Shown: piece by piece, positions 14,929 to 60,421 of the stretch | Layout of the letters: each line of letters begins with the position of its first letter | Position numbering within the stretch: position 1 is the first letter of the stretch | Assembly (NCBI GenBank): GCA_018651345.1 | Contig: JABIEF010000073.1 | Span: 1-64,000 of the forward strand | Source of the DNA: Rhodobiaceae bacterium | GTDB lineage: Bacteria > Pseudomonadota > Alphaproteobacteria > Rhizobiales > TMED25 | DNA length: 64,000 bases | Direction of reading: 5' to 3' | Translations under genes and position numbers: made by a program | Notes under the pieces: generated by a model | Databases searched by the model: none | Told to the model about the DNA's origin: nothing | Seen by the model: only the letters and a program-made list of their open reading frames with translations

Positions 14929-15273
14929 ATGATTGAGATAATAAAAAATATATTAATATGGGGATGTCTCGTTAGCGGATCATTATTTTTTGCTATAGGT
15001 TCAATAGGCCTTATAAGAATGCCAGATGTTTATACAAGAATTCATTCTGTTTCAATTTTAGATACATTATCCGCAATTTTACTAATTCTTGGGATGGTGC
15101 TGTATTCAGGATTGAATTTAACATCCTTAAAATTAATAATAATTTTATTTGGTCTTTTGTATATTTCTTCAGTTGCTAGCCATGCTTTAGCTCGGGCTTC
15201 AATACATGATGGTATTCAACCGATAATAAAGCAGTCAGATGGAAAATTAAGGAAGCGATATTCAAGGAAATAA
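14929..15273 (+). CDS. mrpG: Mrp-type antiporter subunit G
   Basis: A 114-residue subunit with three membrane helices. The motif GSIGLIRMPDVYTRIHS near residues 26-42 is diagnostic for MrpG/MnhG. The start is the ATG at 14929, one nucleotide after the mrpF stop; an upstream in-frame start at 14896 would add 11 residues inside mrpF and is not favoured. The C-terminus is basic and cytosolic (KLRKRYSRK). It is part of the contiguous Mrp operon; the next gene follows after 32 bp. Confidence 0.92.
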   Translation: MIEIIKNILIWGCLVSGSLFFAIGSIGLIRMPDVYTRIHSVSILDTLSAILLILGMVLYSGLNLTSLKLIIILFGLLYISSVASHALARASIHDGIQPIIKQSDGKLRKRYSRK

Positions 15274-15294: not shown

Positions 15295-15308
15295 GGAGAA
15301 TTAAAATC
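15295..15308 (+). promoter_or_regulatory. Shine-Dalgarno GGAG 7 nt before an ATC start codon
   Basis: GGAG at 15295-15298 is followed by 7 nt and ATC at 15306. In frame, ATC GAA ACT TTT ATA AAT precede the first ATG (15324), giving an N-terminus (M)ETFINMILL that looks like normal DUF4040 subunits. The ATG at 15324 has no Shine-Dalgarno at suitable distance. Confidence 0.55.
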
Positions 15309-15839
15309 GAAACTTTTATAAATATGATATTATTAACATTGATGGCGATTGTCGTTATAGGAATAATAAGATTTAAAAATCTTTTTAATGTTATAATATT
15401 AGGCAGTATTTACAGTTTTTTAATGGCGTCAATCCTACTAGTACTTGATGCAGTTGATGTGGCACTAACCGAAGCTTCAGTTGGAGCTGGAATATCTACT
15501 GTTTTAATGCTCTCGGCTTTGTATTTAACGAAAAGAAATGAAAATCCACCGATACATAATCAAATTTGGCCGCTACTAATCGCATTAATTACAGGAGCGC
15601 TTCTTGTTTTTGGTACATACGGTATGCCAGATTTTGGAATTATCAATACACCAATTCATAATCACGTTGGGGGAGAATATATAGCTAGGTCTATATCTGA
15701 TACCGGCATTCAGAACGTTGTAACCTCAGTATTAGCTAGCTACCGTGGATTTGATACCTTAGGAGAAGTAACAGTTATATTTACAGCGGCCATTGGAATT
15801 ATTGCAATCTTAAAAAAAACCAAAAAAAAGGTTAAATAG
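15306..15839 (+). CDS. Mrp-type subunit with DUF4040 and MbhE-like domains (probable ATC start)
   Basis: This protein (177 residues from ATC at 15306; 171 from ATG at 15324) corresponds to the C-terminal region of MrpA that is separate here. The DUF4040 part is marked by DAVDVALTEASVGAGISTVL (about 48-67), and the MbhE-like end by SYRGFDTLGEVTVIFTAAIG (about 146-165). Five or six membrane helices are expected. In Mrp/Mbh complexes this region lies next to the MrpB-type subunits and is thought to form part of the sodium path. It stands between mrpG and mrpB. The start is unusual: no ATG, GTG or TTG gives the expected full N-terminus, whereas ATC with GGAG at 7 nt does. Confidence 0.85.
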   Translation: METFINMILLTLMAIVVIGIIRFKNLFNVIILGSIYSFLMASILLVLDAVDVALTEASVGAGISTVLMLSALYLTKRNENPPIHNQIWPLLIALITGALLVFGTYGMPDFGIINTPIHNHVGGEYIARSISDTGIQNVVTSVLASYRGFDTLGEVTVIFTAAIGIIAILKKTKKKVK

Positions 15840-15848
15840 GGCTTAGAA

Positions 15849-16262
15849 ATGCGATTAGATGTCATACTAAGAATAGCGACTAAGATTTTCTTACCATTTA
15901 TATTTATGTTTGCGATATATGTTCAATTGCATGGTGATTTTGGTCCTGGCGGTGGATTCCAGGCTGGTGTTATCCTTGCTGCTGGGGTTATTTTATACAC
16001 AATTACTTTTGGAGAAAGAAAAGCAAAAGAATATTTTCCTGAAAAATTATTTGAAATAATGATTCCAGTTGGAGTACTGGTATTCATACTAACGGGGGTA
16101 TATAGCCTTATTCATGGATATAATTTTTTAGACTATGAAGCTATTTCTCACCATGGCACACATGGTCAACACTTAGGTGTATTAATAGTCGAAATGGGTG
16201 TATTAATTACAGTTTCTGGATCGATGGTTACAATATTTTATAATTTTATTAATAGAGACTAA
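15849..16262 (+). CDS. mrpB: Mrp-type antiporter subunit B
   Basis: A 137-residue MnhB-domain protein with four membrane helices. The signature HGDFGPGGGFQAGVILAAG at about 29-47 is diagnostic. GQHLGVLIVEMGVLITVSG near residues 98-116 supplies the conserved membrane Glu. It begins 9 nt after the DUF4040 subunit and ends one nucleotide before mrpC. It is a structural or sodium-pathway subunit of the antiporter. Confidence 0.92.
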   Translation: MRLDVILRIATKIFLPFIFMFAIYVQLHGDFGPGGGFQAGVILAAGVILYTITFGERKAKEYFPEKLFEIMIPVGVLVFILTGVYSLIHGYNFLDYEAISHHGTHGQHLGVLIVEMGVLITVSGSMVTIFYNFINRD

Positions 16263-18107: not shown

Positions 18108-19555
18108 TTAAGATAAGCTTATTATTCTTACCAATCTTAATCCCATTTATCGCATCTATCATAATAAAAGCGCTTGGAGGAAATAAAAAATTACGTGAAC
18201 TTACTATTATAGTTGCTCCATTTGTAACATTACTATCGGTTATAAAATTATACTCTCTAGACTATGGCGTTAAATTAGTGCTTTTTGAAATAATGCCTAA
18301 CCTAGAGATTGCATTCTCAATAGAACCTCTAGGACTATTATTCGCCACAATAATATCTGTTTTATGGATAATAGCCTCTCTCTATTCAATTGGTTACATG
18401 AATGCACACAAAGAACCCCGACAGGATAATTTCTTCTTTTTTTTTACTATTGCTATAACTATTGCAATAGCCACGTCACTAGCTGATAATCTATTTACAT
18501 TATTTATATTTTATGAACTATTAACAATATCTACATACCCTCTGGTAACACATAAAGCTGATCCAGAATCCAAGAAATCTGGACGAATTTATTTAATAAT
18601 TCTTCTGGGAAGCTCTCTTTTATTATTTTTACCAGCACTGATTTATACATACTACCTAACAAATGATTTAACTTTCATATCTGGTGGGATATTTACAGAT
18701 GCTTATGCAAATGGTGATATTGGTAATCTTGGAATTGGACTTTTGCTAGCCTTATTCATCTTTGGTGTGGCTAAAGCTGCGATCATGCCACTGCATTCTT
18801 GGTTACCAGCAGCAATGGTTGCTCCAACACCAGTTTCGGCTTTGTTGCATGCTGTAGCAGTCGTAAAAGTTGGAGTATTTACAATAATAAAAATTATTAT
18901 ATATATATTTGGCACTGAGCTTCTATTTAAAACAAGTAGCACAGAATGGCTAATATACTTATCAGGATTTACAATTATAACAGCATCAATCATTGCTTTA
19001 AAACAAGATAACTTGAAGCGATTACTCGCCTACTCTACAATTAGCCAATTGTCTTATATTATAATTGGAGTTGCAATGATTAACTCAAGTGCAATCGTAG
19101 GATCTATCCTTCATTTAACCGCTCATGCAACTAGTAAAATCACCCTTTTCTTTGCGGCTGGCATAATATACACATCAACCGGATTTACGCGTATCAGTCA
19201 AATGCGTGGTATTGGGCATAAAATGAAATTAACAATGATTTGTTTTACTGTTGGATCGCTTTCTATGATTGGAATTCCCATGTTCGGTGGATTTGTAAGT
19301 AAGTGGTATATTGTTAGTGGCGCACTTAGTATTTCTAATTGGTTTGTAATAAGTGTTATTACAATTTCTACATTATTAAATACCGCTTATTTTATACCAA
19401 TAATATATAAATCTTTTTCCCAGGGTCAATCCGCTGTTAGTTACAAAAAAGTTCCTAATAGCATGCTATTAGCAACGATTGCCTCTGCATGCTTAACTGT
19501 AATTATATTTCTATTCCCAGAATTTTTTATCGAGGTTGCAAAAAATGTTATCTAA
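18104..19555 (+). CDS. Mrp-type antiporter large subunit (second of three)
   Basis: A 483-residue paralogue in the same proton-antiporter family. The conserved Glu is in FIFYELLTISTYPLVTH (about 132-148), and Lys residues are in AKAAIMPLHSWLPAAM (about 223-238) and VAVVKVGVFTIIK. HATSKITLFFAAG is the later helix motif. Its start overlaps the preceding subunit by ATGA. It may occupy the MrpA-like position or add a third pump module. Whether it is closer to MrpD or MrpA needs a tree. Subcellular location is the cytoplasmic membrane. Confidence 0.88.
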   Translation: MIKISLLFLPILIPFIASIIIKALGGNKKLRELTIIVAPFVTLLSVIKLYSLDYGVKLVLFEIMPNLEIAFSIEPLGLLFATIISVLWIIASLYSIGYMNAHKEPRQDNFFFFFTIAITIAIATSLADNLFTLFIFYELLTISTYPLVTHKADPESKKSGRIYLIILLGSSLLLFLPALIYTYYLTNDLTFISGGIFTDAYANGDIGNLGIGLLLALFIFGVAKAAIMPLHSWLPAAMVAPTPVSALLHAVAVVKVGVFTIIKIIIYIFGTELLFKTSSTEWLIYLSGFTIITASIIALKQDNLKRLLAYSTISQLSYIIIGVAMINSSAIVGSILHLTAHATSKITLFFAAGIIYTSTGFTRISQMRGIGHKMKLTMICFTVGSLSMIGIPMFGGFVSKWYIVSGALSISNWFVISVITISTLLNTAYFIPIIYKSFSQGQSAVSYKKVPNSMLLATIASACLTVIIFLFPEFFIEVAKNVI

Positions 19556-19769
19556 AATATCAAAAAGAACTATATGGATAATATTTATATCCCTCCTAAT
19601 AATCACAGTGTCTGGTGATTTTTTTATTCACAGACATTCAAATTTTGGCATTGACGGTTACTTTGGTTTTCCAGCATTATTTGGATTTCTTTGTTGTATC
19701 TTTCTAATCATCTTGTCGAAAATATTAGGTTTATTTTTAAAAAGACAGGACAACTATTATGATGAATAA
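19545..19769 (+). CDS. Small membrane protein of the Mrp-like locus
   Basis: A 74-residue protein with two hydrophobic segments (about 9-27 and 38-60) separated by a polar loop with HRHSNFGIDGYFGFPALFGF. A similar small protein with a DG..GF.ALFGF loop occurs in other proteobacterial Mrp-like clusters, as far as I recall; no function is known to me. The start is the ATG at 19545, preceded by GAGG at 9 nt; a TTG at 19536 would add three residues. It overlaps both flanking large-subunit genes by 11 nt, so it is co-translated with them and is probably an accessory subunit. Confidence 0.75.
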   Translation: MLSKISKRTIWIIFISLLIITVSGDFFIHRHSNFGIDGYFGFPALFGFLCCIFLIILSKILGLFLKRQDNYYDE

Positions 19770-32870: not shown

Positions 32871-35630
32871 TTATTCAGCTAAGCTAATTTTAGCAGCTGA
32901 GAATTTAAATTCAGGTATTTTTGCTGCAGGATCAAGCCTGGAACTTGTTAGCACATTGGCGGCTGCTTCTGTATAACAAAATGGAACAAACACTACTCCC
33001 TCCGGAACATCAGGGTCTTGCCTTGCATTCATTATAATTTTACCTCGACGCGTTGATATCGTAACTTTGTTACCTGGATATATATTAAATTTTTCCATAT
33101 CATACTTATTTAAACAAATAATAGGATCCGGTTCAATAGAATTTAATATGCTTGCCCTTCTAGTCATTGCCCCAGTATGCCAATGCTCTAGAAGCCGTCC
33201 AGTCGTTAGTACCATTGGATAGTCCTGATCAGGAGTCTCAGCTGGAGGAACTATGGATGTGGGGACTATTAATGCTCTACCATCTTTTGTAGGAAATTTA
33301 TCACCAAATAATATATCTTCACCATCGCTATCTGGAGATAGACATGGATATGTAACAGATTCTTCTATAACCAACCTTTCCCAAGTAATATTATCCAGAG
33401 AGCCCATAATTTCAGACATTTCTTTAAAAATATCTTTTGGGTGAGTATACTTCCAATCAAGTCCTATATGCCTTGCCAACTCAGTTATTATATACCAATC
33501 TTCCTTTGCATTAGCTGGCGGCTTAACAACCTGCCTACCAATTTGAATTTGTCTATTCGTATTAGTATAAGTTCCCCATTTTTCTGCATGAGTTGAAGCT
33601 GGAAAAATAACATCTGCATTCCAAGCAGTCTCAGTAAGAAATATTTCTTGAACAACAAGGAAATCAAGAGCAGCGATTGCTTTACGAGTATGCACTGTAT
33701 CCGGATCTGACATTGCCGGGTTTTCACCTAGAATAAACATTGCTTTTATATTAGAGGCATGAATTTCATTAATAATTTCAACTGCAGTAAGACCAGATTC
33801 ATTACTTAAATCTTTACCCCAAAATTCTTGGTACATTTTTCTAACCAATTCATCTTGAACAGAGTTGTAGTCAGGATATACCATTGGTATGAGTCCAGCA
33901 TCTGAAGCCCCTTGTACATTATTTTGTCCACGCAAAGGATGAAGACCTGTACCATCTTTACCAATATGTCCTGATATTAAAGCTAATGAGATCAAGCATC
34001 TAGCATTTTCAGTTCCGTGAATATGCTGTGAAATTCCCATACCCCAAAAGATAATTGATTTATCTGATTTAGCATATAACCTTGCTATATCTATGATTAC
34101 AGATGCTTTTATACCGCATATTTTTTCCATATTCTTAGGTGAAAAATCTTTTGTCTCTTCAACAAGATTGTCAAATCCTATTGTTCTATTTTTTACGAAA
34201 TTAGTATCGTATAATTTTTCTTTAATAATTGTATGAATCATAGCATTTAGCAATGCTAAATCTTGCCCAGGTTTAAATTGAATGATATGTTCAGCATATT
34301 TTGCTAAACCTTGTTTTTGTCCCCTTGGATCAATCAATATTAATTTTGAACCCTTTTTTATAGCATTTTTTATATACGTAGAAGCAACGGGGTGATTTTC
34401 TGAAGGCCTTGCCCCAATAACAATAATACAATCTGATTTGAGTGCATCAGTAAATGGAGCTGTTACAGCTGCAGAATTCAGAGATTCCATTAAAGCAAAA
34501 ACAGAAGAGGCGTGACAAAGGCGAGTGCAGTGGTCTACATTATTCGATACAAAGCCTTGCCGAATTAATTTTTGGAATAAATAAGCTTCTTCATTCGAAC
34601 ATTTTGCAGAGCCAAATCCAGCAATACTTTTGCCGCCATATTGATCAGATATTTTCTTTAAATTTTTAGCAGCTAAACTTAGAGCTTCTTCCCATGAGGC
34701 TTCGCGGAAATAATCTTTTATATTAGAATTATCTATCTTCAAATCAAAACTCTTAGTATTGCTATCTATTCTTATTAAAGGTGATAATAACCTGTCTGGA
34801 TGAGATATATAATCAAAACCAAATCTACCCTTTACGCATAAACGACTTTCATTTGATGGGCCATCTCTTCCATCAATTGATATTATTTTGTTACCCTTTA
34901 CCTTAACGTTTGTTTGACAACCAACTCCACAAAAAGGACACAAAGTATCTACGCTTCTATCTGGATAATGCTCCCTAACATTTGATTTGTTTAGTAAATT
35001 TGATTCCATTAATGCGCCAGTAGGGCAAACTTGAACACATTCTCCACATGAAACACATGTGGATTCACCTAATTCACTATCTAAATCAAATACAATTTTT
35101 GACTTACTTCCTCTGTAAGCCATACCAATAACATCATTCACCTGAACCTCTCTACAAGCCTGTACACACAAATTACAATTGATACAAGAATCGAGATTGA
35201 CTGTAATTGCTTGGTGTGAATTATCAACAACAGGCTTGGGCGTAGTCGGGAATCTAGAGCTTACATTACCATTAATTGCAGATGCCCATTTTAATAAATT
35301 TGACTGAAGATCGTGAGCTGATGAATTTTTAGGTTGGTCTGTCATTAGTAATTCAAAGACCATACTTCTTGCTTTCTTAGACCTGGCAGAATTAGTATCA
35401 ATTTCCATGCCCTCAGCTGGCTTTCTAATGCATGAGGCTACAAGATTTCTTTCACCTTTTATTTCAACCATGCAGGCTCTGCAATTACCATCTGCTTCGT
35501 ATCCAGATTGCGTTGAGTAACATAAATGAGGTATATCAATATCCATCCTTTTAGATATCTCCCAAATAGATTCATCCTTAGAAGCGGTTACCTCTTGATT
35601 ATTTATTTTAAATTTTACGTACTTATTGAT
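32871..35630 (-). CDS. fdsA: NAD-dependent formate dehydrogenase, molybdenum subunit (probable ATC start)
   Basis: The catalytic subunit of soluble formate dehydrogenase (formate + NAD+ to CO2 + NADH). From ATC at 35630 it has 919 residues (891 from the first ATG at 35546). Domains in order: ferredoxin-like [2Fe-2S] (CYSTQSGYEADGNCRAC), a His/Cys cluster region, two [4Fe-4S] sites (CINCNLCVQAC, CVSCGECVQVCPTGA), the molybdopterin domain with CPFCGVGC, and the Mo-ligand Cys in HCTRLCHASS (Cys, not Sec). The codons between 35630 and 35546 encode KYVKFKINNQEV...SIWEISKR, the conserved start of the ferredoxin domain, and hold no ATG, GTG or TTG; TGA lies two codons further up. The ATC overlaps the end of the FdsGB gene and has GGAG 7 nt upstream. 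fdsC/fdhD and fdsD are not in the window. Confidence 0.92.
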   Translation of the reverse strand: MNKYVKFKINNQEVTASKDESIWEISKRMDIDIPHLCYSTQSGYEADGNCRACMVEIKGERNLVASCIRKPAEGMEIDTNSARSKKARSMVFELLMTDQPKNSSAHDLQSNLLKWASAINGNVSSRFPTTPKPVVDNSHQAITVNLDSCINCNLCVQACREVQVNDVIGMAYRGSKSKIVFDLDSELGESTCVSCGECVQVCPTGALMESNLLNKSNVREHYPDRSVDTLCPFCGVGCQTNVKVKGNKIISIDGRDGPSNESRLCVKGRFGFDYISHPDRLLSPLIRIDSNTKSFDLKIDNSNIKDYFREASWEEALSLAAKNLKKISDQYGGKSIAGFGSAKCSNEEAYLFQKLIRQGFVSNNVDHCTRLCHASSVFALMESLNSAAVTAPFTDALKSDCIIVIGARPSENHPVASTYIKNAIKKGSKLILIDPRGQKQGLAKYAEHIIQFKPGQDLALLNAMIHTIIKEKLYDTNFVKNRTIGFDNLVEETKDFSPKNMEKICGIKASVIIDIARLYAKSDKSIIFWGMGISQHIHGTENARCLISLALISGHIGKDGTGLHPLRGQNNVQGASDAGLIPMVYPDYNSVQDELVRKMYQEFWGKDLSNESGLTAVEIINEIHASNIKAMFILGENPAMSDPDTVHTRKAIAALDFLVVQEIFLTETAWNADVIFPASTHAEKWGTYTNTNRQIQIGRQVVKPPANAKEDWYIITELARHIGLDWKYTHPKDIFKEMSEIMGSLDNITWERLVIEESVTYPCLSPDSDGEDILFGDKFPTKDGRALIVPTSIVPPAETPDQDYPMVLTTGRLLEHWHTGAMTRRASILNSIEPDPIICLNKYDMEKFNIYPGNKVTISTRRGKIIMNARQDPDVPEGVVFVPFCYTEAAANVLTSSRLDPAAKIPEFKFSAAKISLAE

Positions 35631-45120: not shown

Positions 45121-46536
45121 ATGCAATTAAATGAATATAAATCCTATGACGCTACTGACTTAGCAAAAATAGTAAAAAATAAAGATATCCATCCTAAGGA
45201 GTTACTTGATTTAGCAATAAGTTCAATAGAGAGCGAAGATAAAACTATTTCTGCAGTAGTCATAAAAGCTTATGACGCAGCTAATAAAACTATCGAAAAC
45301 GGAATTCCTAATGGGCCATTTGCAGGGGTTCCTTTTTTATTAAAAGATTTAAATGTATCCTATAAAGGCTTACCAACAACGTTATCCAGCAAGTTATTCC
45401 AGAGTAATATTGCAAAACATGACAGCGGTCTGGTCAAACAATATAAAGATGCTGGATTAATAATATTAGGACTAACAAAAACTCCAGAACTAGCCTTGTC
45501 GTTAACAACCGAACCTGTATTAAATGGACCAACAAGAAATCCTTTAAATATAGAATATTCACCAGGTGGTTCATCAGGCGGATCTGCAGCAGCAATTATT
45601 GCTGGCTATGTGCCGATGGCACATGGAACAGACGGCGGTGGGAGTATTAGAGTACCAGCTTCATTATGCGGACTCTTCGGATTGAAGCCATCTCGTGGAA
45701 GAATTTCATATTACCCTGACCTTGGAGAAGGCCTAGGTGGAATGGCTACAAGCCATTGTCTTTCAAAAAGCGTTAGAGATAGTGCAACTTTACTTGATAT
45801 TTCCTCTAACATATTACCCGGTGACCCTTATGTCGCTCCTAAAAATAATGATAAATTTTCTAAAGCCGCAGAAACAGATCCTAAGAAATTAAAAATTGCA
45901 ATTTGCACAACTGATTTTGAAGGAAATAAAATTAACAATGAATCTGTTTTAAACACATTGAAAACTGGAAAGTTATGTGAAGATCTCGGTCATATCGTAG
46001 AGGAAGCGTACCCTGATTTAAGTGACCTGCCTATATTAAAAGCATGGAAAATTCTTCCTGGAATAAATCTTTTAAACAACCTAACAAAAAGATCTGAATT
46101 TCTTGGTGTTAAAATTAAAGACACAGATGTTGAACCACTTCATTGGTCCTGGATGGAAGAAGCAAAACAATATACTGCCATTGATTACTTAAATGCAATG
46201 AATACAATGCATTTAATAGGAAGGCGTATTGGAGATTTCCTTCAAGGGTACGATCTAATATTAACACCTACGTTAGCAAAACCAGATCTAAAACTTGGTA
46301 AAATAAAAACAGACCATACCGATGTTGACAAACAATTAAATTATTTATTTAAAGAATTTTCTCCTTATACGGCAGTTTTTAATCAATCGGGTGGAGCTGC
46401 GATGTCATTACCTTTATGGACTTCAAGTAAGGGGCTGCCGATAGGAATGCATTTTGGAGGAAAGCTTGGTGATGAAGAGAAACTCATTCAGCTGGCAGGG
46501 CAATTTGAAAGATCCTATTCATGGAATATGACTTGA
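45121..46536 (+). CDS. Amidase signature family hydrolase
   Basis: A 471-residue amidase with the Ser-cisSer-Lys triad. The Lys is expected in FLLKDLNVSYKG (about 77-88), the cis-Ser in SPGGSSGGSAAA (about 144-155) and the nucleophilic Ser in GTDGGGSIRVPASLCG (about 169-184). The C-terminal part GLPIGMHFGGKLGDEEKLIQL is normal. Sequence features near PTTLSSKLFQ resemble 6-aminohexanoate cyclic dimer hydrolase-type amidases, but substrates in this family cannot be predicted. It follows the flavin monooxygenase by 17 bp; together they could open and hydrolyse a cyclic or amide-bearing substrate. Confidence 0.87.
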   Translation: MQLNEYKSYDATDLAKIVKNKDIHPKELLDLAISSIESEDKTISAVVIKAYDAANKTIENGIPNGPFAGVPFLLKDLNVSYKGLPTTLSSKLFQSNIAKHDSGLVKQYKDAGLIILGLTKTPELALSLTTEPVLNGPTRNPLNIEYSPGGSSGGSAAAIIAGYVPMAHGTDGGGSIRVPASLCGLFGLKPSRGRISYYPDLGEGLGGMATSHCLSKSVRDSATLLDISSNILPGDPYVAPKNNDKFSKAAETDPKKLKIAICTTDFEGNKINNESVLNTLKTGKLCEDLGHIVEEAYPDLSDLPILKAWKILPGINLLNNLTKRSEFLGVKIKDTDVEPLHWSWMEEAKQYTAIDYLNAMNTMHLIGRRIGDFLQGYDLILTPTLAKPDLKLGKIKTDHTDVDKQLNYLFKEFSPYTAVFNQSGGAAMSLPLWTSSKGLPIGMHFGGKLGDEEKLIQLAGQFERSYSWNMT

Positions 46537-59404: not shown

Positions 59405-59405
59405 A
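59370..59405 (+). CDS. Possible 11-codon leader peptide overlapping the nadA start
   Basis: ATG at 59370 opens MKKIIANQRVL and stops at TAA 59403-59405, sharing one base with the nadA ATG (TAATG). nadA has no good Shine-Dalgarno of its own (weak AAAGAG), so translation could be coupled to this leader. No conserved amino acid run suggests attenuation by a particular amino acid. The leader itself lacks an obvious ribosome-binding site, so this is tentative. Confidence 0.25.
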   Translation: MKKIIANQRVL

Positions 59406-60421
59406 TGGAAACCTCAATAGAAATTCCAAATCTCGAATATAATAATGATGTTGCAAATGAAATGGCTCCGTATTACGAAAAGGTAAAGTCAGTAATACCA
59501 AAAATCGAATGGCCTGTTCACGCTCCTTATATAAAGGCAATCAATGAGTTAAAAAAACAAAGAAATGCAGTACTGTTAGCACATAATTACCAAACGCCAG
59601 AAATATACCATTGTGTAGCAGATTTCGTTGGAGATAGTCTCGCATTGTCAAAAGAAGCTGCAAGAACAGAAGCAGACATAATTATTCAATGCGGCGTGCA
59701 TTTTATGGCAGAAACATCAAAAATACTAAGTCCAAATAAAATGGTCTTAGTACCTGACCTAGATGCAGGTTGTTCTCTTGCAGAATCTATTACCGGAGAT
59801 GATGTAAGAAAACTAAAACAAAAATATCCAGGAGTTCCAGTTGTTACATACGTCAACACTTCTGCGGATGTTAAAGCCGAATCTGATATTTGTTGTACAT
59901 CAGGGAATGCATTAGAAATAATAGAATCACTTGGTGCTAAAAAAGTATTATTTCTCCCAGATAAATATCTAGCGCAAAATATTGCTAAACAAACAGATGT
60001 TGAAATTATTTGGTGGGAAGGCAGTTGCATAGTTCACGAACTATTTACCCCCGAAGAATTACATCAAGCGAGAGAAAACGAAGAGGATTTAATAATAATC
60101 GCTCATCCAGAATGCCCACCTAACGTTGTTGAGGCTGCAGATTTCTCAGGTTCCACAGCCAATATGATTAGTTATATCAAAGAAAATCAACCAAAAAAAG
60201 TTATGATGGTTACAGAGTGCTCAATGAGCGATAATGTTTCTGCCGTAAACCCAAATGTTCAATTTATAAGGCCTTGTAATCTCTGCCCTTATATGAAAAA
60301 AATTACATTACCTAAAATATTAGATAATTTAATATATCTTAATAATGAGGTTAAAATTGACCCCCTTATTGCAGCAAAAGCTTTTAATGCAGTTGATAGA
60401 ATGATAAATTTAAAAATTTAA
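59405..60421 (+). CDS. nadA: Quinolinate synthase
   Basis: A 338-residue [4Fe-4S] enzyme that condenses iminoaspartate with dihydroxyacetone phosphate to quinolinate, in de novo NAD synthesis. The likely cluster Cys residues lie in IIQCGVHFMAE, SDICCTSGNA and RPCNLCPYMKK. VLLAHNYQTPEIYHC (about 56-70) supplies the substrate His/Tyr residues. It leads nadA-nadB-nadC, which are packed with 16 bp and overlapping ends. The product feeds NadC. Firm assignment. Confidence 0.95.
   Translation: METSIEIPNLEYNNDVANEMAPYYEKVKSVIPKIEWPVHAPYIKAINELKKQRNAVLLAHNYQTPEIYHCVADFVGDSLALSKEAARTEADIIIQCGVHFMAETSKILSPNKMVLVPDLDAGCSLAESITGDDVRKLKQKYPGVPVVTYVNTSADVKAESDICCTSGNALEIIESLGAKKVLFLPDKYLAQNIAKQTDVEIIWWEGSCIVHELFTPEELHQARENEEDLIIIAHPECPPNVVEAADFSGSTANMISYIKENQPKKVMMVTECSMSDNVSAVNPNVQFIRPCNLCPYMKKITLPKILDNLIYLNNEVKIDPLIAAKAFNAVDRMINLKI

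Follow-up and report, generated by a model that had tools for sequence, protein, structure and literature searches.

The mbhDE gene of a Rhodobiaceae bacterium, which encodes a subunit of an Mrp antiporter, very probably starts at an AUC codon (position 15306 of the window), and starts of this kind, AUH (AUA, AUC or AUU), recur at the same gene across proteobacterial families. The window is the whole stretch of DNA that we analyzed, 64,000 nt long (assembly GCA_018651345.1, contig JABIEF010000073.1, positions 1-64,000, forward strand). Start position, conservation and the geometry of the overlap with the preceding gene, mrpG, are well supported by sequence comparison, and we infer from them that initiation takes place with fMet at the AUH codon, coupled to mrpG and under the control of IF3.

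The mbhDE start codon in the window and in orthologues

In the window, mbhDE lies between mrpG and mrpB, within an mrp operon in which Pfam also recognizes mrpE, mrpF, mrpC and several ND4/ND5-like subunits (Table 1). Its MbhD and MbhE domains, together with mrpE, F, G, B, C and D as neighbours, identify the product as a standalone Mrp antiporter subunit, in agreement with an earlier sequence-only reading of the locus as an Mrp DUF4040 subunit. Elsewhere in the operon (19536-19769), a small 77-aa membrane ORF that begins with TTG overlaps the 3' end of the ND4/ND5-like subunit gene in front of it.

The mbhDE reading frame is open from 15210, and its first canonical codon (ATG, GTG or TTG) is the ATG at 15324. 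Base by base, the window contains the arrangement that the sequence-only reading had described, with a GGAG core and an ATC separated by seven nt (AATTAAA, 15299-15305) and followed by GAA ACT TTT ATA AAT ATG ATA, such that translation from the ATC would read IETFINMI. That reading had also held that the ATG at 15324 lacks a Shine-Dalgarno (SD) sequence, and the SD duplex energy there is indeed only -1.3 kcal/mol, compared with -6.4 kcal/mol at the ATC. As an argument on its own, however, this is weak, because most genes of the window do without a strong SD: among 59 likely window genes, only 25% reach -5.5 kcal/mol or lower at their first canonical start (median -3.1). Comparison with relatives was therefore needed, and it is the orthologues that carry the case.

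Table 1. Positions of the features discussed in the text, numbered from the first letter of the window.
Feature	Position	Strand	Basis or remark
mrpG, gene 5' of mbhDE	14929..15273	+	Pfam PF03334; stop 32 nt before ATC
Shine-Dalgarno core GGAG	15295..15298	+	sequence; 7 nt 5' of ATC; duplex energy -6.4 kcal/mol
ATC, proposed mbhDE start codon	15306..15308	+	orthologue alignment, 193 loci; ATC also in congener (L002/L031)
mbhDE, standalone MbhD+MbhE (DUF4040, the C-terminal part of MrpA), 177 aa	15306..15839	+	Pfam PF13244 (3e-16) and PF20501 (1.3e-12)
In-frame ATG (Met 7), start if only ATG, GTG and TTG are allowed; rejected	15324..15326	+	SD -1.3 kcal/mol; codons 2-6 selected in orthologues
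mrpB, gene 3' of mbhDE, ATG start, control gene	15849..16262	+	Pfam PF04039
ATC start of fdsA	35628..35630	-	GGAG-N7 upstream; overlaps fdsB end; orthologous ATG at same codon

We searched for mbhDE orthologues in relatives, in the order, class and phylum, and in a genome collection, and aligned 193 distinct loci by protein. Homology starts at the codon equivalent to the ATC (position 0), which is ATC in 51 loci, ATA in 42, ATG in 37, GTG in 7, ATT in 7 and TTG in 4, while the rest have a sense codon at this position and a canonical start further upstream. The sequence-only reading had proposed ATC as the start and had named orthologues beginning at the Met of 15324 as evidence that would overturn it; we looked for such orthologues, and they instead align from the ATC position, supporting the proposed start. 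Under a fixed rule, in which an AUH-only locus has AUH at position 0 and no canonical codon within 12 codons upstream, 85 loci were AUH-only (43 ATC, 40 ATA and 2 ATT), 48 were canonical at position 0 and 60 were canonical within 12 codons upstream. AUH is thus not required for mbhDE, since 108 of the 193 orthologues use ATG, GTG, TTG or an upstream canonical start.

An SD match was found in 84 of the 85 AUH-only loci, most commonly spaced by 7-8 nt, the combination of initiation spacing and missing canonical alternative that marks a near-cognate start; an SD-like 4-mer preceded the first downstream ATG in only one of the 85. In 42 of these loci, a stop in the same frame lies no more than 12 codons upstream; several loci (for example L008, L011 and L012; TGA TCA ATA GAA) have a single codon between stop and ATA, and 12 loci contain no canonical codon at all from 20 codons upstream to 15 downstream. 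In two loci (L022 and L165) the start motif is doubled (ATCGAAATAGAA), and SD spacing favours the upstream ATC, from which translation would read IEIEALINM.

Most AUH loci belong to the same class as the window; four come from betaproteobacterial MAGs and three from elsewhere in the phylum. The MAG of a congener (uncultured Rhizobiales bacterium) carries the identical ATC, which rules out a sequencing error, and every locus recovered from the sister genus has ATA. When the same rule was applied to five neighbouring control genes (mrpE, F, G, B and C) in the same loci, none of 708 gene instances was AUH-only, ruling out an alignment artefact; the few control cases that fell in no class (mrpB, mrpC, mrpE and mrpG) show a codon other than AUH where the start aligns, apparently because the alignment is offset at the N-terminus. 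The only relatives in the plasmid collection were haloarchaeal, plus one clostridial. The sequence-only reading had counted this as a second ATC start in the same chromosome; the ATC itself is supported, but it is no local oddity, as AUH is conserved across alpha- and betaproteobacteria and further members of the phylum.

Overlap with mrpG and a model of coupled translation

The spacing between the mbhDE start and the mrpG stop is not random. Most AUH relatives have a start that overlaps the 3' end of mrpG, in the manner expected for coupling by termination and reinitiation. ATA starts lie at -4 relative to the mrpG end in 37 of 40 loci, in the form A-UAG-AA with UAG as the mrpG stop, and ATC starts lie at -13 in 31 of 43 loci, in the form AUCGAANNNCUGA; canonical starts at other loci likewise tend to lie at -4 or -1. 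An ordinary ATGA at -4 joins mnhG to the orthologue in a haloarchaeon, and the -4 geometry is therefore wider than the AUA codon. By retaining AUA at -4, a locus keeps both the overlap and Glu (GAA) as second residue, which AUGGAA cannot do. The window genome and its congener (G000 and G001) lack the overlap, as their mrpG stop lies 32 nt upstream of the AUC, and have retained the AUC.

In the model that we favour, the initiator tRNA would read AUC or AUA, and seldom AUU, despite a third-position mismatch, aided by an SD that usually lies 7-8 nt upstream. A start that is weak and discriminated against by IF3 would limit free initiation, such that most translation of mbhDE would be by ribosomes coming directly from the end of mrpG, and the coupling would keep the two subunits, which belong to the same membrane complex, coordinated. 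In most lineages, the AUH start is probably sensitive to IF3 and tied to the translation of mrpG, and it is probably because of this overlap and coupling that so odd a start has been conserved across proteobacterial families. In the window genus, the mrpG stop would have shifted upstream while the AUC persisted, and the case for coupling is weakest there, because the genes no longer overlap and the SD amounts to GGAG alone. On balance, we lean slightly towards such a coupling-and-throttling function for the mbhDE start.

A more tentative suggestion, which we regard as possible though rather doubtful, is that AUAG is itself a selected start/stop device, in which the near-cognate AUA would nearly bar free initiation and leave the downstream subunit to be made only by ribosomes arriving from the upstream gene. 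AUAG may likewise have escaped notice at other coupled genes, because gene finders ignore AUH codons.

Probable selection on the start codon and selection on codons 2-6

The AUH codon could be a real start whose identity has no function, if reinitiating ribosomes were indifferent to it and the codon simply drifted. Drift would fit the mrpG overlap in most AUH loci and the way in which ATA, ATC and ATG replace one another among related loci, for which a FastTree phylogeny of 182 loci, built from one short protein, gives at least 27 changes between AUH and canonical starts and 18 between ATA and ATC. However, ATT is nearly absent, and the AUC persists in the window genus although the overlap is gone. 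Moreover, the third base of the ATN start, with almost no T, changes far more slowly than four-fold sites, by about 16-fold in a simple rate fit, a factor that is only rough because the four-fold fit is near saturation. SD pairing is also stronger at AUH than at canonical starts, as if compensating (median -10.2 compared with -7.0 kcal/mol; p 2e-6 before any correction for kinship, and the locus statistics in general are not fully corrected for shared ancestry). Apart from an effect of GC content, the local folding near the start was unremarkable. The start-codon rates and the stronger SD, short of proof, point to maintenance over drift, which we consider unlikely.

Far less probable is translation from the ATG at 15324, with the ATC and its SD a coincidence. 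This ATG is the first canonical codon in frame, a strong SD is absent from many window genes, and 41 of the 85 AUH loci have ATG at codon 7. Yet the other 44 do not, the 12 loci described above lack any nearby canonical codon, and canonical starts, where present, lie at position 0 or upstream; the N-terminus of a solved DUF4040 homologue (6u8y_D) also reaches beyond Met 7. In addition, codons 2-6 keep their amino acids under synonymous drift, with a pN/pS of 0.40 in AUA-class loci (bootstrap 0.34-0.48), similar to codons 8-20 (0.52) and 21-50 (0.34) and unlike the twelve codons upstream (0.96); in the other two frames, codons 2-6 give 0.69 and 0.76. Because mrpG ends at the start codon in the AUA class, a start at Met 7 would leave codons 2-6 untranslated, and their low pN/pS therefore places initiation at or before codon 2. 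On orthologue conservation and pN/pS, we reject Met 7 as the start.

We give almost no credence to a MrpG-MbhDE fusion, produced by mrpG ribosomes shifting by -1 without any separate start, for although such a slip would join the two frames and the genes overlap in most AUH relatives, it is impossible in five AUH loci because mrpG and mbhDE share no open stretch there, conservation begins at the AUH codon and not upstream, the SD sits at initiation spacing, and inspection by eye revealed no conserved slippery site.

Other AUH starts and their meaning

AUH starts are probably not confined to mbhDE in this genome. The sequence-only reading had assigned fdsA an ATC start with a GGAG-N7-ATC architecture identical to that of mbhDE, and the minus strand bears this out, with GGAG at 35641-35638 followed by seven nt and the ATC. 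The fdsA ATC is present in both congeneric genomes, where it overlaps the fdsB stop by 8 nt, and its assignment as the start is supported by five orthologous loci (L201-L204 and L209) that have ATG at exactly this codon, on account of which the switch to ATC looks recent in the window genus.

The gene for IF3 itself, infC, starts at AUU, AUC or AUA and is autoregulated through IF3. In the window's genome, infC (L210; G000:C78, about 1446-1470) reads AGGAGG-N6-ATA, the conserved region is preceded by no canonical codon, and AUA looks like the start, which would bring the AUH starts of this genome to three; this is as expected for IF3, and AUH initiation is therefore plausible here. Like mbhDE, infC combines a near-cognate AUH start with an SD and conserves it over wide distances, but infC is self-regulating because its product is IF3, whereas the mbhDE product is a membrane subunit, and the infC AUA of this genome overlaps no upstream stop, unlike most AUH starts of mbhDE. 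In a rough scan of the window, two further genes (45121-46536 and 59405-60421) combine a weak SD at the ATG with an upstream AUA that pairs better, which may be chance.

That IF3 discriminates against non-canonical starts has been established for infC and for Streptomyces sigR, whose GTC start is repressed by IF3 (PMC5472188). The sigR start resembles that of mbhDE in being non-canonical, conserved, provided with a strong SD and missed by annotation, but it is GTC or GTT and not AUH, belongs to a regulator gene and is confined to one genus (PMC5472188). Conserved AUH starts with an extended SD are also described for Staphylococcus ccpN (AUA) and cvfC1 (AUU), genes of Firmicutes for which the available part of the report mentions no stop/start overlap; in its S. 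aureus reporters, expression from AUA and AUU was about 10-30% of that from AUG (PMC13009471). For ATGA and GTGA pairs, it is established that -4 overlaps couple translation; like AUAG at mbhDE, these pairs join genes for subunits of the same complex with the SD inside the upstream gene; the -4 surveys, in the parts available to us, give ATGA or GTGA, with AUAG not among them (PMC6728339, PMC10666635), and ATT is mentioned there only as a codon that might give rise to rare -5 overlaps (PMC10666635). IF3 discrimination and -4 coupling may, by analogy, extend to mbhDE. We found no literature linking DUF4040 to a start codon. Relative to infC, sigR, ccpN and cvfC1, the closest known cases, mbhDE differs in that the gene encodes a structural membrane subunit and that its start doubles as part of a stop-codon overlap.

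To our knowledge, very few bacterial genes use AUA, AUC or AUU starts. A survey that reconstructed 61,358 ancestral AUG starts lists a single change to AUU, with no change to AUA or AUC (PMC5622118). In our comparison, one structural gene retains an AUH start, tied to a stop-codon overlap, in about 38 family groups of Proteobacteria (one unlabelled group counted), and gene finders limited to ATG, GTG and TTG would miss it. If initiation at these codons is true, mbhDE starts would need checking in all of those genomes, AUAG would have to be included among the overlaps regarded as coupling translation, and mbhDE would offer a simple system to test whether weak starts enforce coupling.
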